DNA from: Pseudoscleropodium purum
Lineage: Eukaryota; Streptophyta; Bryopsida; Hypnales; Brachytheciaceae
NCBI GenBank assembly: GCA_963969395.1
Contig: OZ017802.1
Span: forward strand, 2,048,501 to 2,112,500
Direction: 5' to 3'
Length of the DNA: 64,000 bases
Under the pieces are notes generated by a model. The model did not search any database, was not told the DNA's origin, and was given only the letters and a program-made list of their open reading frames with translations. The position numbers were made by a program, and so were the translations under genes. Shown here piece by piece: positions 11,846 through 47,434 of the stretch. Numbering within the stretch: position 1 is the first letter of the stretch; each line of letters begins with the position of its first letter.

Positions 11846-12189
11846 CAGGGTTGACGAATCTCTACGTCCGTCCGAAAAAAGCATCCGTAACCCGGACGTC
11901 CGGACGCACAGACGCCGGTGGACGCAACGTCCAGATCGCCGTCGGAAAGCGGACGGGCTGGGCGGGGCGGACGGACGGGGCGGACGCCTAGATCGTGCGG
12001 TCCACATCGGTCCGCGTGTTGATCGGACGGTCGTAATCGGGCGGACGGGGCGGATGGGGCAGACGAGCGGACAGGCAGACGGGGGACAGGCAGACGTTGC
12101 GTCCGCCGGGACCGCGAATGTCAGCGGACGCTGCGGACACAGCGTCCGCGTCCGGACGTCTCGAACGTCCGGATGTCGTGTCAACCCTG
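11846..12189. mobile_element. GC-rich hAT-like MITE (deletion derivative of the 11.7-kb element)
   Basis: The 344-bp element has ends CAGGGTTGACGAATC and (inverted) CAGGGTTGACACGAC. It is flanked by a perfect 8-bp direct repeat, CATAGGCT, at 11838-11845 and 12190-12197. The 8-bp duplication and CAGGG terminus fit the hAT superfamily. It is packed with CGGACG/CGTCCG words and stands out from the AT-rich surroundings. In reverse orientation, its first part matches the left end of the 15647-27379 element and its last part matches that element's right end, so it looks like an internal-deletion product. A frame on the minus strand is only the GC repeat being translated. Confidence 0.9.
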
Positions 12190-14784: not shown

Positions 14785-15646
14785 ATGCTTGCTAGCTATA
14801 TACGGGCTTATAAGGATTGGGACTTTTCTTCAGTTTGAGGTTCACAGTCGGGCGGAAGAAGCTTCAAAGTTCATGTACCAAAGTTGCTTGAGTCAAGGTT
14901 CTTGGTATTGTCGACGATTCAGATATTTGCTTAATGGGAACCGACATATGGGTACATCAATCACTCATATGGCGTTTTTCGTTGTTTGTACATGAGCTTT
15001 GTTTGTTCATTTTGTTACTAGTTTTCATGGAGCTTAATTATACTTCTAAGGTCTTGATTGTGTTGACGAAACCCGAAACCCTTCTTGTGACATTTAATTG
15101 GTAGAGCTAGCTAGCTGTCAAATTAAATGTGGAGTGTAGCATACCTAGCTTTTTTCTTATACTAATGTTTGTCGGAGTATTATTGGGATGACTTTCAATT
15201 AGGATTGGTATTCGTTTCTTGTGGTTGGAAAAACCTACCTTATTTGTTAGCATGTCATGGTAAGATAGTGCGTACCCACGTAGGTGTTCATCTCAGCTAG
15301 CATATCTATTCTTATAGACCTACAGTATATGTGAACTTGTATTTTGGTCTTGTGAATGGCTATGGGTATTTACTTCCTGAGTTTGAGATTCAGACTGATT
15401 GTTAATTCATAAAGTAGCTCGGTTGTGCTGTAATTCATGTGAGGCGCTTCATATTACCCTCACATGCATTCTCTAGAATTTAAGCTATTGTTTGGTCTCT
15501 TCATTTTTTAAGGAATCATTACAATGTGAAAATCAACGTTGTGTATGTTGATACATGGTTCATGCTTTCTCATTTTTGATCAATAGACTACATTAGATTG
15601 TTGAATTTCTTAACTATATTATTTGATCTGACGACAATGACTACAT
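14785..15646 (+). promoter_or_regulatory. 5' leader and first intron of membrane-protein paralog A
   Basis: This block aligns with the upstream part of paralog B (about 38150-39081). Shared blocks include GGGCGGAAGAAGCTT near 14850 (GGCGGAAGAAGCTT near 38200) and ATTTAAGCTA near 15480 (38918), and the last bases before the insertion, TTTGATCTGACGACAATGAC, match the corresponding bases of B. By analogy with B this is leader exon plus most of a 5' intron. The 11.7-kb element begins at 15647, a few bases before the expected 3' splice site. Confidence 0.6.
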
Positions 15647-15835
15647 CAGGGTTGACACGACGTCCGGACGCGGACGCTGTGTCCGCAACGTCCGCTGACA
15701 TTCGCGGTCCCGGCGGACGCAGCGTCCGCCGGGACCGCCCCGTCCGCCCTGTTCGTCCACCCTGTTCGCCCCGTCCGCCCAGACGGCCCTATTTCCCCCG
15801 ACCGCCCTATCCAAACTGCCCCGCGGTCACTCCCT
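15647..15835 (+). repeat. Left terminal GC-rich region of the 11.7-kb element
   Basis: Terminal repeat followed by CGTCCGGACGCGGACGCTG and many CCGCCC/CGTCC words, then an abrupt change to AT-rich DNA at about 15835. The same start appears in the MITEs at 11846-12189 (inverted) and 16553-16837. Confidence 0.85.
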
Positions 15836-16011
15836 TAATCTTTAAACAATTAAATGTTAAATGAAGTGCAATGGTTCGCGATTTGTTATTAAAACAATGT
15901 CTCTCATAAGTTGAAAGATTATAAAGTTTGACCACGAGTCCATGATAGTCTTGAAAGTATGAAAAAATTCCAATTCATTTTCAAAAGGCAAACTAAAAAA
16001 ATTTGTGACTT

Positions 16012-16014
<3 letters not shown>

Positions 16015-16049
<35 letters not shown>
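16015..16049. repeat. (AT)n microsatellite
   Basis: About 17 AT units just inside the left end of the element. Confidence 0.95.
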
Positions 16050-16050
<1 letters not shown>

Positions 16051-16254
16051 TATTTAAAAAATCAAGATCAACACAAATACAAACATAATCAATATGGGCA
16101 AAATGTATTCAATTTAATGTAGAATACCATACATTGTGCACATTTGGCTAATTGCACATATAATTTTTTTCATTCCAACTTTATATTTCTAAACTAATTT
16201 TTAATACCTATATAACCTATTCAAGTATTCAACTACTACTTCTGCACTACCAAT

Positions 16255-18041
16255 CTAATATAAATGGCGGAAATGTTCATCTGGCATCGGCCAACGATAT
16301 GTATTAGAAAATCGCGTAATCACATGGGCCAAACTAGTATTTTCATCGTCAGTCTTCGAAGAAATGCGCTTCAAGTAAGCATAAAACACTTTTGCAAAGT
16401 CATGAAAGGCAAATTGTGTCGCACTAGGTGTTTTAAGTAGCACGTTGAAATACGCCTCTGACATGTTGTTTCCATTCATCCGCCGAGCAATTTTTCGGAC
16501 GGCATACTCTTCCGACTTACGTGAATACATCGGAATGACTTCCACATCTGCAAAGGTGTTGACAGGACGTCCGGACGCGGACGCTGTGTCCGCAGTGTCC
16601 GCTGACATTCGCGTCCTGGCGGATGCAGCGTCTGCTTGTTCCCCATCCACCTGTCTGCCCGTCCGCCCGCCCGTCTGCCCGATTACGGCCGTCCAATCAA
16701 CGCGCGGACTGATTTGGTCCGCATGATCTGGGTGTCCGCCCCGCCCGTCCGCTTTCCGACGGCGGTCGGAACACTGCGTCCGGACGTCCGGAAAACGGAC
16801 GCTATTTTGGGGCGGACGTTGAAATTTGTCAACCCTGCATCTGCACCTGCTTTATGCAAATATGCAATACATGGATCCACCCACCATCTCCTCTGCAAAG
16901 TTTGTTTCATCTCATCTGCTGATGTGAATGTGTACAAAGACTTCATTGGCTGAGAAGCTAAGGTGGTCATGCCCCAATCACAAACTCCAATATACACACG
17001 TGACTCATCCTCTGGAAAATGCAACAAGATGTTGTCCGGAGAAAGATCATTGTGCAAATGTCTAGCAAGATGCACTGCATACATTATATGCATAAACGCC
17101 CATGTCAACTCCGTGCGCTTCTTCCGATATTGCCCTAAACGGTGAGCTTTTACAACCACCTCTTCGGTTGGATTTGTATACATCAAACGGATTTGAATGT
17201 TGTCTAGATAGTCCTTATCCATATTTAACATTTGTCGAAGAGTTCCACCATTTCACCAATACGCATAACCTTCACACATCGTTCCGTGCACTACAGCAAA
17301 TCGTATCACACCCGCGTGTGGAATTCGAACAGCCATTGATTTGTTTTGATGCTCTAACTTTGCAAGATCGGGTCGAGTTTGGTGGTGAATGGATTTCTTT
17401 GCCGCAAACTCCCAATAAGGAAGTATTCCTGGACATCCTTCAATACAAACCTTTCGAATCGTTGCATATCCACCTCTCATCGTTCTATCATCAACAGCAA
17501 TCACGCGTGTTGTATCTGGAAGTGCTATGAGGTGCCGTTTGTTCCTTTCCGCTTCAGCAACTCCATCATTGCTTTTCCACCAACCAATTGAACCAACTCG
17601 ATTGTGCTTTTTGGCGAATGGAGCACATCGCCCCCTAAACAAGTCCGCTTTCAGAATCACTTCTTCAAACTGGGCGTCATTGGGTCGATATTCCTTGCCA
17701 TATTTAACCAAAATGACTTTGGAATTCCACAAAGCGTCATGAACCTTGTTCTCCAAACATTTGGTGAAGTACGTTTTATGCATTTCGTCATACCACTTCG
17801 CCACATTCAATGCATCCAACAACATCTGTGTCATGTCTACCTTGAATTTAGACACGCACTCCTCTTGATATCTAATATACTTATTGTCTAAAGACAATGT
17901 TGTTTTCGATTCATAAAATTAAACGATGCGCTCAATCATGAATTTCTTGCATTCTTCCGAAGGACTTTGGCGAGCTACTTCTAAGTTCGATGGTCCCTCT
18001 CCATGTTTAAGCTTCGCAACCTTCTTCTTCCCGTTCGGCAT
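16255..18041 (-). pseudogene. Transposon-borne protein kinase, broken
   Basis: From the ATG at 18039-18041 one frame encodes a 497-residue protein once the nested 285-bp MITE and its 8-bp duplication (293 bp) are set aside. The N-terminus is basic (MPNGKKKVAKLKHG), then a helical region, then a kinase domain: glycine-rich loop RGGYATIRKV, beta-3 lysine in EFAAKKS, hinge ending NGGTLRQML, catalytic loop HNDLSPDNILL and metal-binding VCDWG. The key catalytic residues are therefore present, so the ancestor was probably active. Breaks: a TAA about 40 codons in, a TGA at 17253-17255 in the hinge, and the MITE at 16553-16837. No intron is needed. It lies second-in-line to the Gly-rich gene on the same strand, with its own GC island upstream (18237-18322). 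The closest kinase family is not clear to me. Confidence 0.8.
16553..16837. mobile_element. Nested hAT-like MITE inside the kinase gene
   Basis: The 285-bp insertion has right end GTCAACCCTG and a slightly decayed left end AAGGTGTTGAC. It is flanked by perfect 8-bp repeats CATCTGCA (16545-16552 and 16838-16845). Its left half matches the left end and its right half the right end of the 11.7-kb host element, including GGAAAACGGACGCTATTTTG near the right end. The MITE thus jumped into a larger member of its own family. Removing it rejoins the kinase frame exactly (GGT GCA GAT GTG GAA). Confidence 0.92.
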
Positions 18042-18236
18042 CGTGACAAATGAAATTGATATAGATCAAATTTTTTAATTTGAAATTGAATTCACGTGCA
18101 AGTGTCCAAAAAATTGGCAACAAGGGGGTCCCAATAAACCACTCTTGCCTTGCCTCGGAAAAGAGCCAATGGAGGATGAACCACTAAGCTCTCCGCTCCA
18201 CCTTGCATTCACAAGGGGCAAAGCAAAAGTGACAAT

Positions 18237-18322
18237 GCGGACGGCCCGTCTGCCCCATCGAACGGCCCCAAACCGTCCGCCCGATCGGACGGGCACGGGC
18301 GGACAAATCAAGCGTCCGCCCA
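18237..18322 (-). promoter_or_regulatory. CGGACG-rich island upstream of the kinase gene
   Basis: About 85 bp of GC-rich sequence with several CCGTCCGCCC/CGGACGGGC words, 195-280 bp upstream of the kinase ATG. It resembles the element's terminal regions and the islands before the other two cargo genes. No TATA box is evident next to this one. A promoter or transposition-protein-binding role is inferred. Confidence 0.5.
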
Positions 18323-18924
18323 ATCCGATTTATTTTTCATATTTGAAAATAGAATCTAAAGAAGAACCACTAATTGTCTAATTTGGGCATTTCTTCATAC
18401 GAATAAGAAATCATTTTAATTTTTAGCAATCGTTGAATGAAAAATAAAAAAATTTCAAATATTCAAATAATTTAATCTTTCATAAATTAATTAGAAATAC
18501 ATTTATATCATTTACGAGTTTCTAAATGTAATAAACACACAACAATAATTTCAAAATACACACCATGCTAGTACATATTTAACCTCGAATGCTAAATTCA
18601 AAAATAAACATAATATGGCTCTTACAAAATTACATTTCTTCTTCATATTTTTATTATTTATCAAAGTCGCTTATAGCCGTATATATCAACGCTATTATAA
18701 AATAATACAATGATGTCTTCAACAATATGCTTGCCTACATACATACTTGGTGTACACTATTACACAACACTTTTTGAAAAAGTGAACAAAATTGTTGTTC
18801 AAAATTGTTCTATTCATTTAAAATTTTGTACTACTTCTACCAATCTAGTGCTCTATATTTGTCGTGAGAGTAAAAATGAGAAAATTGAGCAAATACATGC
18901 TTACTATATACTTGCATGTTTTTT
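18323..18924. other. AT-rich spacer within the element
   Basis: Non-coding spacer between the kinase upstream island and the 3' end of the Gly-rich gene. No distinct terminator identified. Confidence 0.5.
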
Positions 18925-20187
18925 TTATTCGGAATCTGAATCAGACTCAAATTGTTGACTGCTGCCTCTTTTTTGTACTCCAATGAACGGACCACCTCCG
19001 TAGTTTCCGTGATATCCACTCGGTGCACCTCCTTGTCTATAATTTGAACCTCCAAAAGTGGGAGGAGGAACCGGAGTAGTAGGCTCTGATCCTCTTTCAT
19101 TTGAAGCCCCGTCATAAGAGGCCCCATGATGCCCGTATGAATCACTTCTAGTTGATCCCGGATAGTAGTGGGCGCTTCCGTGAAGAGAGCAACTATACTG
19201 CGGGGTTACATGGCTTCCTCCACTACCTTCAGAGCCCACTTGAGTGGGCGTCGTATAATATGAACCAGATTCAGTAGACCTACTATAGTGCGTGTTGCCA
19301 TAACTACCTGTCCCACCTAGAGAGCCAATTTCAGAGGGAGTGCCATAACGAGAACCAACTGCACTTGAACCACCATAATGCGTGGATCCATAGCTCCCTC
19401 TTCCACCTTCATATCTATTTTGAGGATCGTAACCAGAGTATGAACCACCTCTTCCATGTTCAGATTCTCACGTTCCATGTTCATGTCCGTAGGACCCACC
19501 ATGCCTATCTTGCCGTCCACGATCTTGAAGGCTTCTGCATGTTGCTTCTTGCATTTGTTGCTCGAATTCAATTCGTTCTCGTTCTTCTACCCGCTCGCGT
19601 CTAACTCCAAATGTGACAAGCGCTTGCATATCATCGTCATCATCGTCATCTGTCCACACATCTTCAGCATCTCGTAGAACAATTGAAGGTTGTTGTAGAT
19701 AACCTCGATTAGACTACTCTAGCATGCAATCGCTTGCGCCCCTCCATTGTGTGTCTATAACGGCATCCGTGCGCGTACAGTTCTCTACATTGCGACCTGT
19801 AGCAGTACGCCAGTCCACGTCCTTGTGGAGTACAATCTCTGCCCAAACCATTGCCATAACATTATAATTCATTATATTTGGTTTGGCGCTTTTAATGCCA
19901 AGAACTCGATGCACTTGTGTGTATCGTTGTTTGAAGTGCTCACTTTGGCACGTAGACATTTGTCCTTCCCAACGTGGCGCTTGGTGCTCTACACGTTCAC
20001 GTCGCCAAAGTTTTTGAATGTGAGTCATTTTTACATACTTCTTGCACATTGAACAATCCCACACTCTTGTTGGTTCTTTTTCTCATCCCGGTTCACCCAC
20101 GCACAATGGATCTGCCCAAGCATCCCAATCGAACAATTGGGGTCTTCCCTTTCGACTACTTTTTTTGGGTGTTCTATCTTTCGGCAT
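18925..20187 (-). pseudogene. Transposon-borne Gly/Ser/Tyr-rich protein with shared N-terminal domain, broken
   Basis: From the ATG at 20185-20187 a single frame of 420 codons runs to 18925 with no frameshift but three stops: a TGA about 35 codons in, a TAG at 19714-19716 and a TGA at 19468-19470. Order of parts: basic N-terminus (MPKDRTPKKSSRKGRP); a domain starting VWDCSMCKKYVKMTHIQKLW and extending through MNYNVMAMVWAEIVLHKDVDW; an acidic run of seven Asp; a charged, probably coiled segment (RRERVEERERIEFEQQMQEA); then a long low-complexity tail with repeated GSYG and HYG motifs ending SDSDSE. The first domain also occurs in the RING gene of the same element. The WDCSMC start hints at metal binding but I cannot name a zinc-finger class. 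A DNA- or RNA-binding role is a guess. Intronless. Confidence 0.7.
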
Positions 20188-20408
20188 GATGAAGCTGAAG
20201 CAAAGAGAATGAAACAATTAGAAAGCTTAAGAACCAAAATTTTGATTTAATTAATTCATTAAAATTTTACAAGTGTGAACTTTGTGAAAATTTGTAACAA
20301 TGCCACAACAATCGTTCACTCAAAGCGGAAGGGGCGCGCAGAGCTTCCAATGCACTGGTCCGCCCACTCCAAAAGAGAACGATTGTTCGGAATGAGCTGT
20401 CCGCCTCC

Positions 20409-20616
20409 CCATATATATATGCGGACGCCCCGAGGCGGACGTTCAGATCATGCGGACCACATCAGTCCGCGTGTCAATCGGACGGCCGTACCGGGGCGGA
20501 CAGGGCGGACTCCGGATCGGGCGAATAGGGCGGACGGAGGACGGGCGGACGGATATCGCGGCGGACGGGGTGGACAGGGCGGACGGGTATTGGGACGGAC
20601 AGGGCGGACGGCTCAT
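20409..20616 (-). promoter_or_regulatory. CGGACG-rich island plus TATA box upstream of the Gly-rich gene
   Basis: About 195 bp of GC-rich repeats, followed in the direction of transcription by TATATATAT at 20412-20420, about 225 bp before the ATG at 20187. Part of it (CGGACCACATCAGTCCGCG) matches the middle of the two MITEs in inverted orientation. A core-promoter role is inferred from position and the TATA box. Confidence 0.6.
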
Positions 20617-20681
20617 CTTGAACCCTAAACCTAATGAAGGAAATTGTTCTTTTTTCAAAATCTCACAGTAGAGATGTTTAA

Positions 20682-20880
20682 CCCGTAAAGTTCTTTTCAC
20701 TAAAAACACTTCAAAACTCCCAATAGTAGTACAAATATCAAGTCTTAGAAGAAAAATACTTTGGGGCATATGTAACCGTAGGATCTTGTAGTAAATTAGT
20801 TGGAAAAAATATGGAAAAAATTTTAGACAAATCCACCATTTGGATTGTAAGATATTAGATATTGAATGTTTCATTTAAAG
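20682..20880. mobile_element. Truncated end of a TTAA-type element
   Basis: TTAA at 20678-20681 is followed by CCCGTAAAG and then about 190 bp that align with the left end of the element at 56530 (shared: GTAGGATCTTGTAGTAAA-like, CCACCATTTGGATTG-like, AAGATATTA). The rest of the element is missing. Confidence 0.6.
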
Positions 20881-23036
20881 GGGCTACTCAATTATGTCTA
20901 TTAATGAACAATTGGTAGGCTAACAAACCTAACTTAGCATGTATTTTAATATTTGTTGCAATTGTTTTAGGAATATTATAACATAACACTATTATAATAT
21001 TCTTATAAATGATATAATACTAAATCATTTCAAAATCAACAACATTCGAACACAATCTGTCAATCTTGTCTTTCATACTCCTTTAATGATATATATATAT
21101 ATATATAAATATATATACATACATAAAATATATTAGATAAATCAACATGAACAAATCAATGATTATATATTTCATAGATCTATTCTTCATCAATCAAATA
21201 AGAGTGCATGTGCAAATATAGACAAAGATGGTTTCTCCATTTGTTGCTAAAAAATAGATAAACAAATAGAGAAAGATATGAAGTAAATGTTACTTAGAGA
21301 ATTGAAAAGAAAGAAATTGAAGTACTCAATTGCATTTTATTAAATTGGAAAATTGCATGTGGATGACATGAATTAATCTTCATAGATGCTAAACTTATAC
21401 GAGTTGCATTTTAACATTTATGATTTATGCAATTGATTGAATTGAAAGCTCTTGTAATTACATTTTCAAATTTTCGATTCAATCATTCAAATTTGCAAGA
21501 GTGATTTATGATAGATTTATAACTTTAAATGTGAAAGCATTCAATGCCTTTATGCGTTTGTTCATCAATATATTAATTTTAGATAAATAATATATATTTT
21601 TTATAACATATGCATAAACCATTACATTAAAAAAAACTAAAAACTAAAAGCCAAGCCAAATAGGCTAGTCCAATGAAGAGAACAAGATAATAAGAGCCTT
21701 ACGAGACAGAAAACAAAGGAAAAAAAAGAAATATCAAAAGGATTCAAAGGAAGAAACAAGATGCATTCTTGCAAGACCGTAGAATACATAATGATTTCAA
21801 AATCCAAATACAAATATATTTTCTATTTCAATGAGAGCCAAAAATGAACTACCTTGCTCTCAAAGATTGTATAATGTACATGTTATACAAAACGAACAAA
21901 TAACAGAAAGAGTAGAAGACATCGTTTATCATGATTGAAAACTGAAATGATTTTTTTTTTCTATGTAGAATATTTTATGAAATGTAACAATGTATTTAAT
22001 TATCATAGTAATTGGTAGAAATCTTTGTGCAATACATAGAAACATTTCATTCATGTGGAATGTTTTCATTTATTTAGGATTAAAATGGAAATATTATACT
22101 CTACAAAGTACAAACCAAAAACAATACCATATACCTAAGTTCAAAAGTTTGCAATTGTTTCGTGAATTCATTTTGAAAACTCAAACAAAGAAATATTTTA
22201 TAATCAATATCTTGTTCATTTGAATCATTTCAAAAATCGAATTCCGAATTCAATTCCTATTTATAATAGAAATTATATTTGTCAATTTTTTAGATCTCTA
22301 AACAATGAACCCTCTTTTTTAAAATTAATATTTAAAAACATCTGAAATAAAAATATTGGAATTACCCTTCAAAATAAATATAGCACATGTATAATGTATT
22401 CTACTCCACCAACTCAAGTAATGAATTTTTCTATGTTTTTAAGAAAAAATATATCCATACATGATTTGAAAGTTAAAACATTGATTCTTTTTCTTTGTTT
22501 TCAAATCTAATCAAAATTTCATTAAAAAATATGAAAGACTCGATGTTCATTTGAAGATCGTGATGCACTTTTAATGAGAAATCACAACCTTTCATTAAAT
22601 ATCATGAGGTTGAAATCCATTAAACTGTTATTCTAATTATGTATTGGGGCCTTTTTTTAAAATTTCATTTGCTTACAATGAAAATGGAATTGATTATTTT
22701 TGCAAAACATTTGATTTCCTAATGAACTTTAAAAAAATCCCCACCATCTTTAGATCTTCTCAAAACCTATTTAGAGGAATAATATCAGTAAATAATTCAA
22801 ACATATTCAACTTAACCACATTCCCCTCATTCGTAAAACAATTTAGGGGAGAAAAGAAAAGGTTTAGGGTAATTAGGGTATAAGGTTTAGGGTTTACATT
22901 TTAAGAAAAAAAAAAATGACAAACTAATTACATTGATCCTCATTTAGCAGTGATTATTAGGCTGTTTTATTTTTGAAATGTTACCGCTCTTTTTGAATAA
23001 TAATGGCCTCATAGGATGCACCAATTGACAGCTAGG
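20881..23036. other. AT-rich interior of the 11.7-kb element
   Basis: About 2.1 kb without a supported gene. It holds an (AT)n tract at about 21090-21117 and telomere-like repeats near its right side. I looked here for a transposase and found none; the longest frames (under 80 codons) are AT-rich noise. Confidence 0.55.
22841..22899 (+). repeat. Degenerate plant telomere-like repeats
   Basis: TTTAGGG and near copies occur five times in about 60 bp (ATTTAGGGG, GGTTTAGGGT, AATTAGGGT, GGTTTAGGG). In plants such telo-box-like motifs also occur in promoters; this block lies about 140 bp before the GC island of the RING gene. Confidence 0.5.
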
Positions 23037-23267
23037 CGGACGCCGTCGGCGGTCAGTGTTTAAGTGGGGCGGTCGGCGTGTCCAAAGCGCGGACGGCGTC
23101 GGAAGGCGGACAGTGCGGACAATCCGGTCGGACGGGGCGGTCGGACGGGGCGACGGGCGAAAGGCGCGTCCCCTACCGAAGCGAACGTCGTCGGTCCGCG
23201 CGGCGGACACGAGGTTCGAGGCCGCTTCGCGCGGTCCGGGGCAGGTCCGGCGGCGGACGGCTATAAG
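23037..23267 (+). promoter_or_regulatory. CGGACG-rich island plus TATA box upstream of the RING gene
   Basis: About 225 bp of GC-rich sequence with repeated GGCGGACG/GTCGGACGGGG words, ending directly at TATAAG (23262-23267), 214-219 bp before the ATG at 23481. The island-TATA-ATG spacing is close to that of the Gly-rich gene. The frames within it are translations of GC repeats. Confidence 0.6.
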
Positions 23268-23480
23268 GGTGGAGTGACTTTTCATTTCTTCTCACTTCAA
23301 TTCTCCTTCGGTGCCAAGTTGGATGTGCTACTATTGCTTTATGCGCTAGTTGCTCCTATGGGGTGGAGAATTGAGGTCCTCTATCTTGTGTTACTGTGTT
23401 GCGGTTGATGCCATCACTTTTGACTATCACGTGAGATTTTTTTATTCACTTCAATTGGTTATTGAATCCAATTGACAATC

Positions 23481-26400
23481 ATGAACGGCGAAGGTGATCG
23501 AAATATGGATGGGGTGACTCCGGAAAGCGAAGTGAAGAAAAAAAGCAAAGTGAAGGGGGCTACGCATGACCTTCCGCTGGACATTTTAAATGATCCTACA
23601 ATTAAAGCAGAGAGCGGGTGGGAAGATGAAGATGTGGAGTATTGGACATCAAAAATGTACAGGACCTATGTTAAAATGTACCACATTGACAAGTTGTGGC
23701 CTCAGAAGTCGCACATGAGTCATACACGGGATTTTTGTTGTAAACCATGGACTTGCAACAACAAACATTTTGTCCATCGATCTGAGGAGGTGTGGCGTGT
23801 TCTATTTGGAAACAAGCGCAGAAGTAAAAGCTATATTAATTATAGCGTGGCGTGTATGGTTTATGCGGAACTTATATTAGAGCGCAAGATCGATTGGAGC
23901 ACGTTTCCGACGACAACAGCTTGCCCACTTCTACTTGAAGCCAATCAAAAGGACATTCCCGACTTGTACAATTCAGAGGGAGAAACAGAAAAAGTATTAA
24001 AAAATACTATTGAGGTGAAAATAGATGGTGTGGAGAAAGCCTCAAATGTTGAAGAATTACGGTCTGTACAATCTCCAACAAAAGCAATCAATGAAAGCTC
24101 TTCGAAAAATGTGGGGAAAGATGTGGAGAAAGATGTAGAGGCGCAGGAAGGTGAAGTCTTTTCCACAGCTCCAACGCATTTGACCTTTACACCAAATGTT
24201 GCAGCACAAACGCAAACGGAGTTTGTAAACAAAGGCAAGGTTTGCACGGAACGCGGAGAAACTTCAAAAAGTAAAGTAGACGAAGTCTTGGCGGAGAAAG
24301 TGGCAAAGGCTAATGCTACAATTGATAGTCTGATAGCCAACAATTGTTTTGATAGTTTGGTCTACAAATCTCTGCCTGTGCATCAAGGCGTTGAATCTAG
24401 TCCAGCGTTAAGTTTAGAAGACAAAGTACATACGCCTCGTGAACAAGGCGTGACGATTGATAATATATCGTCATTATGGAGTTCCGAGCGTAAAAGGCGG
24501 GCGGAGGAGTTTTCAATTACATCGGCATTGCCAAGTCCTCTACATCGAACCTTGCAAGACATGTCCAATCCAAAACAATTGGAAAATCTTTTGAAGCTCT
24601 CGGTTCAGTTTGCTAACCTTCATGAAGAAATAGGCGGATCGTCGAACCCCGATGATAGTGCTACTACTGTTCCAATGAGTCCACTTGCAGATCCAAAGGA
24701 TGTTGCACATATACTTGATACAGCTTTCAAGATAACGATGTCAACTGAATTTTTAGCGCAAGCTACTCCGACTTTTATGAATTTGGCCAAGGAGTTTTCT
24801 TTAATAGCACCAGAGATGTTGAAAGGTGCTATAGCATTTCAGAATCTCACGAAGACTTTCGGACCACTTTTCGAAGAAAGAGATGTTCATATACTACAAT
24901 TGGTGGAATATGAGAAGAAAATTGCTGACCTTGAAGGAGTGGAAGCAAGGTACAAAGTGTTGGAGTTGAAATTAAAAACTTCGGAGAGTGAGGTTGAACA
25001 TTTAAATCAACAATCATCGAGGCAAATGGAGGAGTTGATGAAGATGCGTAAACGGATTGCAGAATTGCAAGGGACCTCCAAAAATCCAAATGAGGTTGCA
25101 ATCTCACCAGTGATTGTACTCGGAGACAGTCAAGAGACTCAAGAGAGTGAAGAGAAGCTCTCTCTTCCTTTTGATAAAGCCGAAGCAAGCGACAATCCTG
25201 CCATTCTGAATGTACAAGAAAGTCACGACATGAGTATGTTAAAAGCGACACAATAACCATCAATGGAAAAGATTTCATCCGTTTACGTGAATGCGGAGAC
25301 GCAAACGGAGAGTTGTGACTTTGAAGAGTTGAAGCATAAATTGGAGGAGGCAATTGAAGCAAAAGAAATCGTTGAATCCAAGTTGAATCGATTGCAATTG
25401 TCCTTGGATTTGAAGAAGTTTATGCCATCTAACGGCTTGGAGTCTCGATGGTTAGCATGGGTACAAAGACTCCAAGACAGACCCTCTGTAGTATCTCGTC
25501 CAATGGCAGGTCTTCAAACATTGGCAATGGAGTCAAATGAAAATTGTGATGCCATTCAAAGCTCTTTGAGTTGGTTCAAGACTATGTTTGACCAACATCC
25601 TTCTAAGGGATATACGGAGATCACATGTTGGGGAGACATGGATGCCATGTTTGAGCGGTTAAACCACACAAAGAAGGACCAAGCTCCACCCATCAATTGG
25701 GCCTTGGAAGTAAAGGAAGGATGGGTCCTTTACAACACACTTTCAACACACATCAATGTGAAAGACAAGCAAGTGGTGCATGCTTGTGATCCAGCCTCTC
25801 CAATCTTGGATGGTTGTTGTAGCCTTTGCCAAGGCCTCTTTGGACCGGAAGGTGCAGTAACCATGGGCCAATGTCGCCACACTTTCCATGTCACTTGCAT
25901 TGTGAAAGCATCACTCATTCATTTGGTGTGTGCCGAGTGTCGTAGTCCATTGAGTGCTAGGTTCTACGAAATGTTTGGTATCTTGGAAGCTATGCCTCCA
26001 GGCCACGAGTACAATCGTTGGAATCTTCTTCTTGATCAAGCGCCGTACAAATTTCAAAATTATCAACATTGAGGGAAGCCAATCCGGTGGAATGCAAATG
26101 AACAGAGGCATGATTTGTACGAGGAATCTCAGCAACCATTGGATTTGGATGTGTGGATGACTTACAATAGAGAGGTGGAATTGCGGGCTCGAGGAATCGT
26201 AGATGACGCGGCCCGTGAAATGTTTTGTCGCAACATGGGGGGACTTTGGAGCTTGCACACGAAAAGTTCTTTCGTTTTCTAGATAAAAAAGTGGAGAGAG
26301 GACCAGAAGACAGTTGGGTGGAGGTGAACCATGGAAAAGAGTTCGATGAGTAGTATAAGGCATATGACCACACCCTCGTAGGTAGGGCCCTTCTATTGTC

Positions 26401-26878
26401 GAAGTTGGAAGAGGCTGCAAAAGTTCGTACTGTCTACGATACAAATGGACTAACAAGCATAGGACATTCATCTGTAGATGTGGCAGCAGCATTTGATAGG
26501 CGCATTGGCGATATTATAGGGCATTGGAAGGCTTTCCTATTGGATGGAGACTGCCTCACAGTATGGCAAGGGAAAGGAGATGATGAAGTTGTTCAAGCGA
26601 TGGTAGATCGTGTGGAGAGCAACTTGAGAACCTTGGAGGCAAACGAAGTCGATTTATCACCGAAAAGAAAACAAAAAAGGAAGCGTGAAGAGGACGATGA
26701 CTTCTCTCCAGAAACCAAGAAACAATTTCATAAGGTGGACATCGAAGTTCAATCTGGAGGGCGAATAGTCCGTCCAAGTCAACAACGGTCAACTCGTCAA
26801 TCATCTGCTAAACTCCTCGGTACAGCAGATTTTCCTTTTGTTTTGGGAGAAGGTAGTGGTCCATCCGGTGGAAAGTAG
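23481..26878 (+). pseudogene. Transposon-borne coiled-coil RING-H2 protein, broken
   Basis: The first usable ATG is at 23481. The frame is open for about 590 codons to a TAA at 25254-25256, continues in frame to a TGA at 26070-26072, shifts by one base in a G-run near 26238, and meets a TAG near 26346 before ending at 26878, so the ancestor was about 1,130 residues. Parts: residues about 54-145 hold the domain shared with the Gly-rich gene (YVKMYHIDKLW to INYSVACMVYAELILERKIDW); a long acidic middle; predicted coiled coil around 470-560; a second helical block (ELKHKLEEAIEAKEIVESKL); a RING-H2 domain with CCSLCQG, QCRHTFHVTC and CAEC; and a basic C-terminus (PKRKQKRKREEDDD). RING-H2 domains usually act as ubiquitin ligases. 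Intronless. Not a recognised transposase. Confidence 0.75.
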
Positions 26879-27177
26879 GATTTGAGGAGAATTTTGTTTT
26901 TTAAAAACAATGGTCCTTTCATTGTTTAAAAACAAAAAAGAATGTGAAAGATTTAGATCTTAAAAAGATCGTATAGGATTCAATAGTGATATTGGAACTA
27001 TGTTTTCATGTATTTTGTTTATACATATATATTTATATATAAAGATGCTATATTTTCATTTGCGTATAAAAATATTTTTATATGTATATCTTATTTCACG
27101 TGGATGCATTCATTTGTGATTGTGTAACTTTCAAATTACATAACAATATAAAATTTTCTAATGACTAATGGCAATGC
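26879..27177. other. 3' flank of the RING gene inside the element
   Basis: AT-rich 3' sequence with a short inverted repeat just after the stop (TTTGTTTTTTAAAAACAATGG with CATTGTTTAAAAACAAAAAA-like, 26894-26938), which may form a hairpin near the transcript end. Confidence 0.4.
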
Positions 27178-27379
27178 GAAGTCCGCCCCGTCCGCCCTGT
27201 CCGTCCGCCCCGTCTGCTCTGTACGCCCGACCGCCTCGGCCGGCCGCCTCCCATTCGCCCCGCCCCGCGCGTCCACCTTCCGACGGCAGGAGGGACGCTG
27301 CGTCCGCTAGCGTCCGTGCGTCCGGACGTCCGGAAAACGGACGCTATTTTGGGGCGGACGTTGAGATTCGTCAACCTTG
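27178..27379 (+). repeat. Right terminal GC-rich region of the 11.7-kb element
   Basis: Starts abruptly with CCGCCCCGTCCGCCC words and ends GATTCGTCAACCTTG. It contains GTCCGGACGTCCGG and ACGGACGCTATTTTGGGG, also present near the right end of the nested MITE. The last terminal bases carry one change from CAGGGTTGAC (CAAGG). Confidence 0.85.
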
Positions 27380-27913
27380 GACTACATCTATTGCTTTGCA
27401 ACTAGTCACCATTCATTACGGGTATATATTGTACCAAAATTTTCATTAACAAACCTCTATTAGCCAAATTGGTCTTTACTTCCAGTGGCACCTCTAATAC
27501 CAGCTAGTTGTGGTTTTCAAGAGAAAGAATTTCGTGGAGGAAATTTATTTGAGCAGCGGTACATTGAACTTCTAAAGCATTGCAAAGTTTATTCATGCGA
27601 CACTTTTCAAAAAGCCTTTCTTTGTATCTATTGTACAAGGATGACTTGAAGAGTCTCTTGCAAAGATTATTTTTGTCGTCATTGCTACAATAGTGTTGTT
27701 ATGCTGCTCAGCTGCTCATATTAGTACTTCAATTCAATTCAATCATGTTGAAGAGTATTCATTGGTTATTGACTGTTTCTACAAATCACATTTGTTCAAG
27801 ACGAGAGTGGAAGAAATTGTGGTGTTATTGTGGTGCACGGCCATACATTACTTAGGACTGTGGGAGAGGAGAGAATAGCAAGGAGGTAGTTTGCAAGGGA
27901 CGTTGTGGCATCA

Positions 27914-42496: not shown

Positions 42497-45400
42497 CTAT
42501 TTGTTGCCCACGATAGTGATGAGGTAAGGGCGCTCCAACGGAGCCTTGCAAGTCAGCAGGTGGCCTTTCAGTCGAGGCATGTTGGGCTGTGCGCTCCGGC
42601 ACCGGTGGCAACGAAGCTCCATCCTCAAAAACCTTTCCTCTATGTCCGGACCACAAGGCAGAACTCGCCCCTTCTCTGCCACTTCAGCCATAACATCCTG
42701 CGAGTCCCGGAAAAATCCAGTGGTGAAGGTGTTCCAGTGCTTCTTGTTCTTCAGATTCGGAGAGTCGAAGTCTTGACTTATGACATGCATGTGCAGTTGT
42801 CGCATCGACGGTACCTGAAGAAAGCGAAAACTGAGTTAAACATGGAAAGAGACTGTTCGACGGACAGCATGATGCAACGTAGAGGATTCTAAAACTGCAA
42901 AGGACGTGAACCCTCAACCCCTCTCCTGTGCTAACTGCAACTCACCTATTCATACACCTGGTTGGCCTTCAATGGAGCCAAATTAAGTTGGATACACTAA
43001 AGCATGACTTTTGGCTGAAGGAATGAATAATCACTCATCTTTGCAAGGATATCGATTTGTCTACTTTCCCATCAATATGGTCTACAAGCTCCCAATTTGA
43101 ATGATAGCATAAAAAATTAATAAATAGTGACAAAAACTCTGATCTCAACAGATTTGGCTGTCGAGCTTAAAAATCTCTCTACAGTGCTGCAGTGATCTCC
43201 CAAACAACACTTACATATGTTAGAATTCTTAAAGTGACGCAAATGGTATTCCCCTACCTTACATGCAAGGCAATTGTCCACCTTGCAAGCTCCTCAAGAA
43301 GATGAAGGACCGAATCCAAGATGTTGAGAAAGTAGCATATGAAATACAAACAGCATTCCACAGAATTTTCAGAGGTGATTTGAATATGGCTTACCCAGTG
43401 GTATCCAAGGCGAAACACTAGCGAAGGGTCCTCGTCGAAATACCGCCTTGCCCAAGTCTCACCAAGTGCATGCATATGCTTTAGAACAGGCAGATGCAGA
43501 GAACGGACATCCTCGATCGAGTCCAATCCGTCTCTTCTTGCAATGACCAGTAAATGCTTCTTACCCTGTCAAATTACCGTTTCGTAAGAAACTTATGCAC
43601 AATACCATCCATGTACTTATTCTCCTACTGAACTTGAATCAATCATGTAGAGAAAACTATCCAATCAGAGTCGACATGGTTAGACATCATGACTTAAATC
43701 GCGGTTCTCAAAACAAGTCAATTCTACTGCACGAGAGATAACGGAGGCACTAATATATAATCCTCCAAACCTGAGGGTTAACTTGGCGGCTAAGATAGAT
43801 GGTATTTACCTTTGCAAACTTGTCGGCGATGACAACTGCTTCATTTGTGACTTCCAGAGCAGCAGGAGAATGTTGCTCGGGATGCAATGCGATATTCCGC
43901 AATTCCTGAGCCCATGCTCCCCATTTTCCAGCTGTTCTCTCGTTGGTGGCTTTCTTGAATGTGGTCTCCAGACTCCCCAAAGTCTTCTCTTCCCTGCATG
44001 CCACCTTCAAAAGTCAAAATCACCATAACCCCTACTGAAGGCAAAATAGGGGCATCTAAAGTCACCAAAAAAACTCAATTTAGTGATACAACGAAAATTT
44101 CAGTCAATTCATAGAACAGGTACCCCTATCACAATCTTGTAATTGAAAGATTCTACTGGAGTTGTCCAATCAGAAAGGCAATAAAAGCAAGATAAGAGCA
44201 TACGAAATGCAGGTATCAAAAAGTTTACTATATTTGATTGCTCCTAAATTTATGAGGTTTTGTTCAGTCATATCAGTTTTTCATTCTAATTGTGCCATAT
44301 GCATGTTTCTGTGGCAGGTACTTAAGAGGAATCAAACTGTTAGATTAATCTCCTCATTCGAAATCATGAAACACCGAAAACAAGCTTGTACTTCAATTGT
44401 GTTATCAATTGTGATATCCTAATTTGAAGCAATGGTAAAAATAAAAAAACCAGGTCAATTGACAAAAACATGACACATTTCAATTCACATTGGGTATAAT
44501 CTGAAAATTTGAAGCAAGAAACTTTGTAAAATACGAGGAAAAAAAAGGATTCGAAAAGTCCTTCAAAAGAGAAATATTGCATGACGTCCAAGGATGAATC
44601 ATTTTAACTCTCTGCACGATTGCAGTTTCGGTCAAATTAGATATTAATACTGGGAAAAGAATGCGAAGGAGATACATAGAATGTTGCACAGCCAGGCCGC
44701 TATTGTCTGTCATGTCGATGTCGGAGTCCGTCTTAGTGCTTTCCTTCTTGACATTTTCATCAGTCTTCATACTTTCATCCCCAACAGGTCGATCCCGTTT
44801 CTGATGACGATCCATATCCCCTGGACCTTTCCGCTTGGCAGATTGCATCAAGAATGTGAAGGCATTCTTAGGTGCCGCTTTGAGAGAGTTCTTTGTTTCA
44901 GGTGAACCTCGAACATCAGCCCCCGCACTTTCACCACCAACTTGCTGCTCAACCAATGGCTTGTGGAGAGCGTTCAACGAATTGTTCTCTTTCAGCGCCA
45001 TCGTGGAGAAGGCCGTAAAAAGTTTACAGTATGCATTGCGTAATATTCGGCAACCTTGTGTATAATCTCCAGCAAGGGAATTTGGTCTCAGTGGATTCAT
45101 ATTGGGACCGAGCACATGGATGACATGAGTCACTCCTTCAATTCTGCGTAGAGGGCTCGTAGCAGGTAAAGCAACTGCCACAGCGTCCCCAGGTTGGAGC
45201 GTCTTTGCAACTTCTTTGGTTGCAAACTCCAACTCGAAACCGGCAGCCTCGAATATGGCTGCATTCACACCACCACCACCTGGTTTCAGCCGCCTGAAAA
45301 TGCAGACAATCATGTTGACTCAATCATCTAGAAGTTACAAGAAATCTGCGTCAAACTGGAGTAGACAATTTTGAAGCAATCAGTGCTGACAGATATAGAT

Positions 45401-47434
45401 ATGAAATCAGGCCATGCTCACCAATTCGTTGCATTTGCAATGAATCTGCACTTGGGACCTCCAGATGAATGCAGTTTCGTAATATCTCCAGCATGTATGA
45501 GCAGCTGCAGTGATGAGAGTCCAGCTGCAGCAGCCTTTTTCGAAACCCGACCTAGCATGTCTGAATTTGCAGAGAGATCTACAAATACGAGTCTCAGATC
45601 AGCATGGTTTGGGTTATGGAAAAACTCCGTAACCATTGCCACGATGATATCTGCTGCCATTTCATGATCAAACTGGAAGTCTGCTGTTGAAATAGATGGA
45701 AACGCTAGCGATCGAGACCCATCAATATCATCGTCCTTATTCATCATATTTACAATGTTTGCATCTGTTCTCCTGTCTCCAAAATTCAAATGAGGGCTAC
45801 TAATTGATACTCGCACGCTCTGTGAGGACGAACTTATATGTTCATCAACGGAAGATTTAGACTTCCAATCCTTGCCGAAAAGTGACTGTAAAGTCCCCTT
45901 CCCTTCCTGAACACTGGCACCGAACACACCCAAAGGTAGACGACCCCCACTGTCCAGCTGTGAGTAAAGAGCTACAGCTTTCTCAATCTCGGTGTCTGTC
46001 CGGCAGTAGGTAATCCGAACAAATCCTTCTTCCAGAGTCGGTGGAATTCGTGACCGTGAAACGCGGGACACCACTCCTCCAACACCTGAGCCCTGTAATC
46101 CTCCCTCGTGCTCAATACGTTGGGAAGCCCGCTGGATGCACACGCTCAATGGAAGATTAATAACCAATGCATGAGCTTCTACCCCCCTCTCCTTGGCTAG
46201 TAGGAGGAACTCTTTACGTTGTTCAAGGTCAATGTTGCAACGGTCTATAAGCACACAGCGCCATGTAGACAGTGCAGTCCCCGCTATCTTCAGACACTGT
46301 ACTTTGGTGCCACGTTTACCATTTGAAATTACATCCTGCAAAATTACATTTATGGTAATATGAAACTAGCAAGCCCGTAAGTATTACCCAAATGCCATTA
46401 AGAGATTTGCTATAAAAAAAACAGGGCATGTCAAATCCATGTATAGAAATTTCCATTTGCTTCCAGTTATATGTATGGCAGAATTTAAAACTTCTAGTTT
46501 GAGTTATCCATATTACTCAATTCCTTGCAGAGGAGATGATTCTTACTGCAAAGCTAACCAAGATAGTCCCAATCCTACCATCACACCATCGCCATCTTGA
46601 GTCTCAAAAATCTGCGAAAGATCTATGCTTCATCTTCAGAATAATCAAAGTCAAGAATAACAGCTATTTCTTACGAAACTTCAATTGCTATATGAGAATC
46701 ATTCAACAAACCTGGCAGATACGAGTCCAAGGCCGAGCTGCATTTTGAACAATTTTCTGACAAACCGTGCTTTTGCCAGACCCTGGCGGACCGACTAGCA
46801 TTAAAAGCACCAAGTCCTTGCTGTCATTTGGCCGCTGTAAAGTCGAAGCTGCAGACGCTGCTGATTAGTGCATGTTAAGAAAATATAACTCCCTCAATTG
46901 AGAGCATACTTCCAACTGATCATAAACTCTTCAACTATATCTAGTAACCCCTAAAGGATCAAGAATTCTTGGTTTGAAAATGAGAAGTTTGATTGATCGT
47001 ATTTCCAAAAATATATTTGAGATGGGACAGTTTCACCCAAATTAGTGAAGAACATTGCATGTGTTGGTCAACAATTAGGATTAGATACAAGAAAGTTCAC
47101 ATAAGACCTACTCAAAACTGCTCAGAAAAACATTTAGGGGGGTAAAGATACTTATCAATACACAAAACCAGGGTCTGCCCTACCCTACGACGAGTCCCTC
47201 TTCTTGATTTTCGTTACTTAAAGTGAATGGAGGATTTCGTGTTGTTCGAAGTAGAAAAACTGTCGTAAAAGTTATAAAAATTAAAATACCTGGCAGCTTA
47301 GGTGGTGTAGTCTCCTCATGAAATTTTACGCGATTGATCTCTGAAGGATGTCGAAACTCCAGCAAGTGCTCAGGATTTGTTCTATAGCATGCAGCACCCC
47401 ACTTGCAGTCCGGTAAGTGAATTTTTCTGTCCAT
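42497..47434 (-). CDS. APTX: Aprataxin-like DNA-repair protein (PBZ-kinase-macro-HIT-zinc finger)
   Basis: Seven exons join in phase: 47434-47290, 46860-46712, 46335-45422, 45293-44676, 43993-43810, 43565-43395 and 42814-42497, all with GT-AG borders, giving 832 residues. Order: PBZ-type zinc finger (C10, C16, H23, H29), which in other proteins binds poly(ADP-ribose); polynucleotide-kinase-like P-loop (GPPGSGKST at 72-80) with IDRCN near 128-132; macro domain with NATNWRLKPGGGGVNAA around 400; a charged linker; HIT domain with QLHMHVISQDF near 733; C-terminal finger with CHRC and HLLTC. Aprataxin removes AMP from aborted DNA-ligation ends in the nucleus. The kinase-macro-HIT layout is that of the plant homolog (Arabidopsis bHLH140); here a PBZ finger stands at the N-terminus. 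The first histidine of the HxHxH motif is Gln. All joints were made by eye. Confidence 0.9.

Follow-up and report, generated by a model that had tools for sequence, protein, structure and literature searches.

Members of the hAT superfamily of DNA transposons ordinarily encode one transposase and have ends of the CAGGG type with short terminal inverted repeats, and in the Ac/Ds system an autonomous element is accompanied by deletion derivatives. In En/Spm, which is not known to carry a kinase or a RING protein, the second protein of the TnpA/TnpD system binds repeated subterminal motifs. VANDAL elements are Mutator-like and do not belong to hAT. According to passages of PMC10398659, they contain non-transposase genes (VANB and VANC) besides VANA, together with short motifs repeated in non-coding regions, and VANC proteins bind these motifs and lift silencing. 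Here, an 11,733-bp element was analyzed in a 64,000-nucleotide stretch of the moss Pseudoscleropodium purum (contig OZ017802.1, positions 2,048,501 to 2,112,500; hereafter the window). This element is most probably a decayed copy of one form (form B) of a large four-gene hAT family, and a derivative lacking the transposase.

The family shares with hAT elements of the Ac/Tam3/hobo type an 8-bp target-site duplication, short inverted CAGGG ends, subterminal motif repeats, short derivatives and, in sister forms, a transposase with DUF659 and hATC domains. It differs in its three further genes, in the 16-kb length of its fullest copies, and in a gene-bearing form without transposase that numbers hundreds of copies. 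Form B stands to the four-gene element as Ds stands to Ac, with the same ends and the transposase lost, but it retains three protein genes and has reached hundreds of copies. A second protein proposed to act on repeated subterminal motifs recalls En/Spm, which is of another superfamily and in which no kinase or RING protein is known. Because the transposase of the family is of the hAT type, the Mutator-like character of VANDAL and VANC is not shared. The likeness to VANDAL lies in a plant DNA transposon with non-transposase genes and, perhaps, repeated short non-coding motifs, although no kinase or RING protein appears in the passages of PMC10398659, and the binding and methylation loss demonstrated there are a guess for the present family. 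The family is a variant within hAT and not a new superfamily. No hAT family with such genes was named in the open-licence literature searched (titles and abstract openings), and moss, hAT, kinase, bryophyte and RING were all absent as whole words from a 2026 gene-capture review (PMC13317346).

Boundaries and forms of the family

The element occupies positions 15647 to 27379, starts with CAGGGTTGAC, ends with GTCAACCTTG and is flanked on both sides by GACTACAT (15639 to 15646 and 27380 to 27387), a perfect 8-bp duplication. Its terminal inverted repeats are 10 bp long: the left one (15647 to 15656, plus strand) was set by reading and by the common start of genome matches, and the right one (27370 to 27379, minus strand) reads CAAGGTTGAC on its own strand. 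The 10-bp CAGGGTTGAC is present at both ends in copies b and k, and at 9/10 in the window element and copy e; since the right end is GTCAACCCTG in 7 of the 12 copies with both ends compared, the CAAGG of the window copy is one point change. In a genome search with a left-end query, all 40 scored candidates (of 2954; window included) matched, and 35 of the 39 from outside the window began at query positions 45-49, where the proposed element end is 48; a second end query likewise matched in 40 of 40 scored (of 2937 candidates; window included).

The near-matching terminal repeats and the perfect duplication were present as the preliminary description had claimed, and they recur across the family. 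Among 13 copies with both ends, nine have perfect duplications (window, b, c, d, i, j; e, k; n), and copies g and h (the latter after a one-base shift of its right end) show 7/8, so that 11 of 13 reach 7/8 or better; in random draws, 7-of-8 agreement between flanking 8-mers occurs in 0.079%.

In the 313-Mb genome searched, a 24-base left-end mark had 1504 matches at one mismatch or fewer (control 0), and 30-base gene marks at two mismatches or fewer numbered 850 for the kinase, 440 for RING, 506 for hAT and 398 for the Gly-rich gene (controls 0). Several gene matches also formed inverted pairs separated by about 10-35 kb, whose members have identical stops and equal or near-equal scores (C48:9791842-9811709, C49:700529-735404, C46:1160251-1185833 and C1:2659228-2689422, for example); such pairs represent either recent palindromic duplications or fold-back assembly errors, and would inflate copy counts.

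Fourteen copies, chosen non-randomly, were studied initially: the window element, ten others (a to j; four with both ends among the end matches and the six next-best left ends), k and l (picked for an hATC match at the right distance) and m (picked for hAT and Gly-rich matches together). Nine of them (window, a, b, c, d, g, h, i, j) represent form B, about 11.7 kb long, in which kinase, Gly-rich and RING genes recur in the same order. Copies e, k and l represent form A (9.5-9.8 kb), with kinase and transposase, and there are two hybrids, f without the Gly-rich gene and m with kinase, Gly-rich gene and transposase. Copy e has the same first 2.66 kb as the window element (minus a nested insert), the same 2.5-kb center and the same final ~120 bp, and it carries an hAT transposase in place of the Gly-rich and RING genes, with Pfam matches to DUF659 (2.8e-27) and Dimer_Tnp_hAT (hATC; 6.5e-10) and a BED match (0.011) below the cut-off. 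The transposases of k, l, m, n and o align to it. Stop-free stretches made up 19 of 63 transposase and 6 of 51 RING matches among the best scored, a biased list that includes the query copies.

Exact marks were also paired along C1 and over the initial 17.6 Mb of C40. Within 4-9.5 kb downstream of 88 kinase marks, a same-strand partner was RING in 26 cases, hAT in 28 and both in none, as against 2 RING and 1 hAT on the opposite strand; the remaining 34 kinase marks were left unassigned, because exact marks miss mutated copies. Six copies on C1 that had a kinase mark and a listed left end, but no RING or hAT mark, proved to be three of form A, one of form B and two of cut-down form B. A Gly-rich mark accompanied 20 kinase marks (17 with RING, 0 with hAT, 3 with neither) and was missing in 9 of the 26 with RING.

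The four-gene form

In the fullest copies, kinase (minus strand), Gly-rich (minus), RING-H2 (plus) and hAT transposase (plus) genes follow one another, each preceded by a GC-rich tract of GTCCG/CGGAC motifs. Two such copies, n and o, were read after the first 14. Copy n, on C40, was signalled by a kinase mark followed by RING after 6.5 kb and by hAT after 10.9 kb, the latter beyond the 9.5-kb cut-off of the pairing. It is 16.2 kb long, including a nested 316-bp relative, and is flanked by the perfect duplication TATTGGTA. It corresponds to the window element from the left end to 11624 of 11733 and then to form A from 5599 to the right end, and thus contains left end, kinase, Gly-rich gene, center, RING gene, the transposase part of form A and right end; between the two matches there is a 42-base overlap in GC-rich motif sequence. 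In this form, the transposase gene starts where the final ~120 bp of the element begin (window ~27260-27270).

The RING-transposase junction (361 bp) was found at full or near-full length in 25 places and in two pieces in 3 more, among the best 40 scored of 886 candidates, and hence in at least 28 places; the other 12 of the 40 cover the transposase side alone. On partial lists, 4 of the 28 junctions have an hATC match downstream, 4 a RING mark upstream and 7 either. Copy o, the second-best junction match, has RING, transposase and right end in the same order as n; its right half was read, and kinase and RING marks lie on the same strand at the expected places (C1:33261856 and 33255951). An intermediate reading, in which the two forms excluded each other and no copy combined RING with the transposase, was dropped once copy n and the junction search revealed four-gene copies; it had rested on the 9.5-kb cut-off and on 14 full and 6 partial copies, likewise non-random.

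The preliminary description was supported in part. The absence of a recognizable transposase from the element held, as no hAT domain (Pfam) was found in the open reading frames (ORFs) of the window or in the less-broken form-B ORFs submitted. With no match to a BED/hATC transposase in either set, the window element is not an autonomous hAT. Its description as a giant, cargo-carrying, non-autonomous hAT element was essentially right, since an ordinary hAT transposase is found in other copies that share its ends. A search for further copies had been suggested; hundreds were found, the three genes recur in fixed order, and a transposase is present either in place of RING (form A) or downstream of it (the 16.2-kb unit). 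On the evidence of the shared left end and final ~120 bp, it is very likely that the family transposase moves form B in trans.

In a separate observation, the transposase N-terminus of n and o differs from that of form A around the BED-like motif, and the four-gene transposase is perhaps a separate subfamily.

Origin of the shorter forms

The boundaries between forms sit in the GC-rich motif tracts, and forms A and B consequently look like derivatives that have lost cassettes. Loss of the Gly-rich gene in e and f is bounded by the tracts upstream of the kinase and Gly-rich genes; the boundary between A and B lies in the tract upstream of RING (23133), and that between B and n in the right tract. 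The four-gene form is probably ancestral, judging from these sequence relations. Loss of its last cassette would have produced form B, loss of the Gly-rich and RING genes form A, and other losses the hybrids; such shorter forms would arise through recombination or copying errors between the tracts.

Sequence distances add to this picture. The four-gene pair n-o is more diverged than copies of the shorter forms in RING (0.070 vs 0.045 within B), in the 5' part of hAT (0.079 vs 0.050 within A; the most diverged region) and in its 3' part (0.058 vs 0.040), and n differs from B in the kinase by 0.061, as against 0.047 within B. This greater divergence fits an older form, on unrooted trees and two copies. 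In the left part and the kinase, form A is about as distant from B (0.046 and 0.048) as B copies are from one another (0.049 and 0.047), whereas in the center the A-B distance (0.0475) exceeds those within B (0.033) and within A (0.037). An unrooted tree of the center unites e, k, l and f with a, a full form-B copy (support 0.998), and an unrooted kinase tree places the form-A copies with f and form-B copy i (0.839); these groupings imply that pieces have been exchanged between forms.

Conversely, A and B could be the original pair, with four-gene copies generated later by recombination of the right tract of B with the tract upstream of the transposase in A. Such a history would account for the much higher frequency of A and B (hundreds of marks) than of the junction (found at 28 places), for the pieces exchanged in copies a, f and m, and for the 42-base GC-rich overlap in copy n, a possible cross-over site. 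It nevertheless appears unlikely, given that the junction is common to at least 28 places, that the two four-gene copies are mutually more diverged than A or B copies, as expected of the older form, and that each of A, B, f and m can be derived by a single loss if the starting point is a four-gene element.

A further route, starting from the four-gene element, is that it is becoming multipartite: two high-copy forms, separately mobile but identical at their ends, would have emerged from it and would now spread together by sharing their products, much as multipartite viruses do. One form would supply the transposase, the other the RING/Gly-rich pair and both the kinase, and exchange through the GC-rich tracts would hold them together as one family. 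The finding of four-gene copies lowered the standing of this proposal, which is now considered improbable.

Accessory proteins

The three single-exon, decaying genes named in the preliminary description (kinase, Gly-rich and RING-H2) were borne out by ORFs and domains. For the kinase, Pkinase (Pfam) matched 33 of 34 sequences at E<=0.01, with P0001 itself below the curated cut-off. Residues K223, E242, D340, N345 and D363, which we take to have the catalytic roles usual in kinases, are invariant in the 34 aligned sequences. The predicted structure (mean pLDDT, predicted local distance difference test, 85.3) had kinases as its best PDB matches (E 4.1e-07; template modelling (TM) score to target 0.59; root-mean-square deviation 10.3), so that the model supports a kinase fold with a low whole-chain TM. 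The 61 relatives found extend down to 23% identity; the two with informative names are from Ceratodon purpureus, and one labelled as a bacterial metagenome-assembled genome is taken to be contamination. Most members of a more distant group (P0073-P0083; identity to P0001 of 23-31% in the aligned ones) have a longer N-terminus; the group may represent either another lineage of such elements or the cellular source.

The RING protein, of about 1100 residues, comprises a coiled coil, a RING-H2 domain and a conserved C-terminal part. The eight predicted C3H2C3 ligands are invariant in 17 sequences, and the best solved relative of this part is RING finger protein 24 (1.6e-06). Nine of 18 relatives are 1039-1249 residues long, and full length is kept in relatives 31-47% identical to P0005. 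The Gly-rich protein, with 23 relatives, consists of a low-complexity tail and an N-terminal domain alignable with the N-terminus of the RING protein. In this shared domain, C90, H94, F95, Y118, M123, L130 and W136 are invariant and C58 and H66 nearly invariant in 22 sequences; it may bind zinc, a suggestion drawn from these residues with no Pfam or PDB match in support.

Nearest relatives of the kinase, RING and Gly-rich proteins are similarly identical (73%, 77% and 73%), a pattern consistent with joint travel, though no proof of it. Kinase and RING profile searches of collections of viral contigs and genome contigs returned no relatives. A transposase hidden in the RING or Gly-rich protein was also considered and rejected, as profile comparisons with the hAT transposase gave no matches.

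Selection and possible function

Variants were analyzed in the frames of intact copies and divided into single-copy variants and those shared by two or more copies. Single-copy variants were near neutral, with ratios of 1.12 for the kinase, 0.85 for RING, 0.73 for the RING N-terminal stretch, 0.97 for the Gly-rich gene and 0.90 for hAT, and with stops near the expected number. Among shared variants, stops were depleted in the kinase and in RING (1 vs 6.4 expected in each) and numbered 0 vs 0.6 expected in hAT. Copies evidently decay neutrally once inserted, and these variant patterns indicate that the kinase and RING frames are kept open in source copies.

The accessory genes are evidently not accidental captures, because full-length relatives exist in other lineages and shared kinase and RING variants are depleted of stops. 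In the preliminary description, finding a hAT transposase at this place was to count as a sign of accidental capture; that criterion is too strong, since gene order is fixed, the transposase lies alongside in the fullest copies, and full-length relatives occur elsewhere. Tentatively, and by analogy with known systems, kinase, Gly-rich and RING proteins may serve the elements as helpers, by maintaining their expression or by controlling transposition. Following the VANC example, the shared N-terminal domain of the Gly-rich and RING proteins would bind the GC-rich tracts, and at these sites the RING protein and the kinase would target either the transposase or silencing proteins of the host. A hAT family with a catalytically intact-looking kinase, a RING and a Gly-rich protein beside its transposase falls outside the picture of one transposase plus debris, and hundreds of transposase-less copies keeping three accessory genes raise the direct question of whether these genes help with transposition or with escape from silencing, and further whether the shorter forms live on each other's products. 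The good genetics of mosses makes such tests feasible.

Several points weigh against this overall interpretation. Trees are unrooted and only two four-gene copies were read, with which a later fusion of A and B is compatible. Transposition, expression and binding are proposals from sequence alone, and relatives in other species are known just as sequences, not as parts of mobile elements. The shared N-terminal domain matched no DNA-binding family in Pfam or PDB and gave no profile match to the hAT transposase of the family. Shared-variant stops were undepleted in the Gly-rich gene (4 vs 3.6 expected) and in the RING N-terminal stretch (2 vs 2.6 expected), and the intervals of the shared missense ratios (0.69, 1.16, 0.71, 0.62 and 0.49) all include 1. 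Copies a and f lack a target duplication at their assigned ends, the right end of copy e lies outside its motif-dense bins, and motif clustering is partly a matter of composition, because the tracts are GC-rich.

Passive capture, in which host kinase, Gly-rich and RING genes were taken up once by a hAT element and are useless to it, is judged rather unlikely. Single-copy changes are neutral in every gene (0.73-1.12), all three window genes are broken, and kinase and RING are ordinary eukaryotic domain types. However, the transposase decays equally neutrally (0.90), so this neutrality is uninformative on function in source copies; moreover, the kinase and RING variants that copies share include few stops, RING has kept its full length across relatives 31-47% identical to P0005, and the kinase is present in A, B and the four-gene form.

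Autonomy of form B through an unrecognized transposase among its own proteins (the preliminary description had suggested that one of the three takes part in transposition), likeliest the long RING protein with its ~1100 residues, conserved unannotated parts and a model too uncertain (mean pLDDT 44.8) to exclude a catalytic domain, is very improbable, as beyond RING no nuclease-like match was found in Pfam or solved-structure sequences, the RING protein is without similarity to the true hAT transposase that the family possesses, and duplications and ends fit a hAT enzyme sharing them.

Internal organization of the window copy

All three intronless genes of the window element are broken. The kinase gene (16255 to 18041, minus strand), which is open over 505 codons in copies c, d, i and k, is split by a nested 285-bp non-autonomous relative (16553 to 16837, plus strand) whose ends nearly match those of the element and which is flanked by a duplication of its own, CATCTGCA; this insert is absent from the ten other copies compared and from k, l and m. 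The decayed Gly-rich gene lies at 18925 to 20187 (minus strand), and the RING-H2 gene at 23481 to 26878 (plus strand), where a stop at 25254 interrupts the frame, which breaks again after 26072. The RING-H2 gene is without counterpart in form A, and in the four-gene form the transposase gene follows it. An AT-rich non-coding center (20630 to 23030) is common to the hAT-carrying forms.

GC-rich motif tracts lie at the left end (15657 to 15830, rich in GTCCG/CGGAC; limits by eye), upstream of the kinase gene (18235 to 18330; by eye; shorter than in b, c, d and i), upstream of the Gly-rich gene (20315 to 20640; limits by eye), upstream of RING (23030 to 23270; the form A match ends at ~23133) and at the right end (27178 to 27369; the final ~120 bp common to A and B). 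Sixty-six of the 73 GTCCG/CGGAC sites of the element fall in 8 of 47 bins, which are GC-rich and of which two lie in or beside the nested relative. Counts in four copies (window, i, e, k) showed a high density of these motifs at the left end and upstream of the genes in every copy, and at the right end in three. The left flanks of copies a and k are GC-rich like these tracts (the k duplication being GGCGGGAC), which suggests insertion into other family copies.

A 21-base left-end pattern (three mismatches or fewer), expected 0 times in the window, was found twice, at 15647 and in a short 344-bp relative at 11846 to 12189 (minus strand) with the same ends and the perfect 8-bp duplication AGCCTATG. 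Farther along, positions 44480 to 46341 (minus strand) contain exons of a host gene, aprataxin-like by eye.

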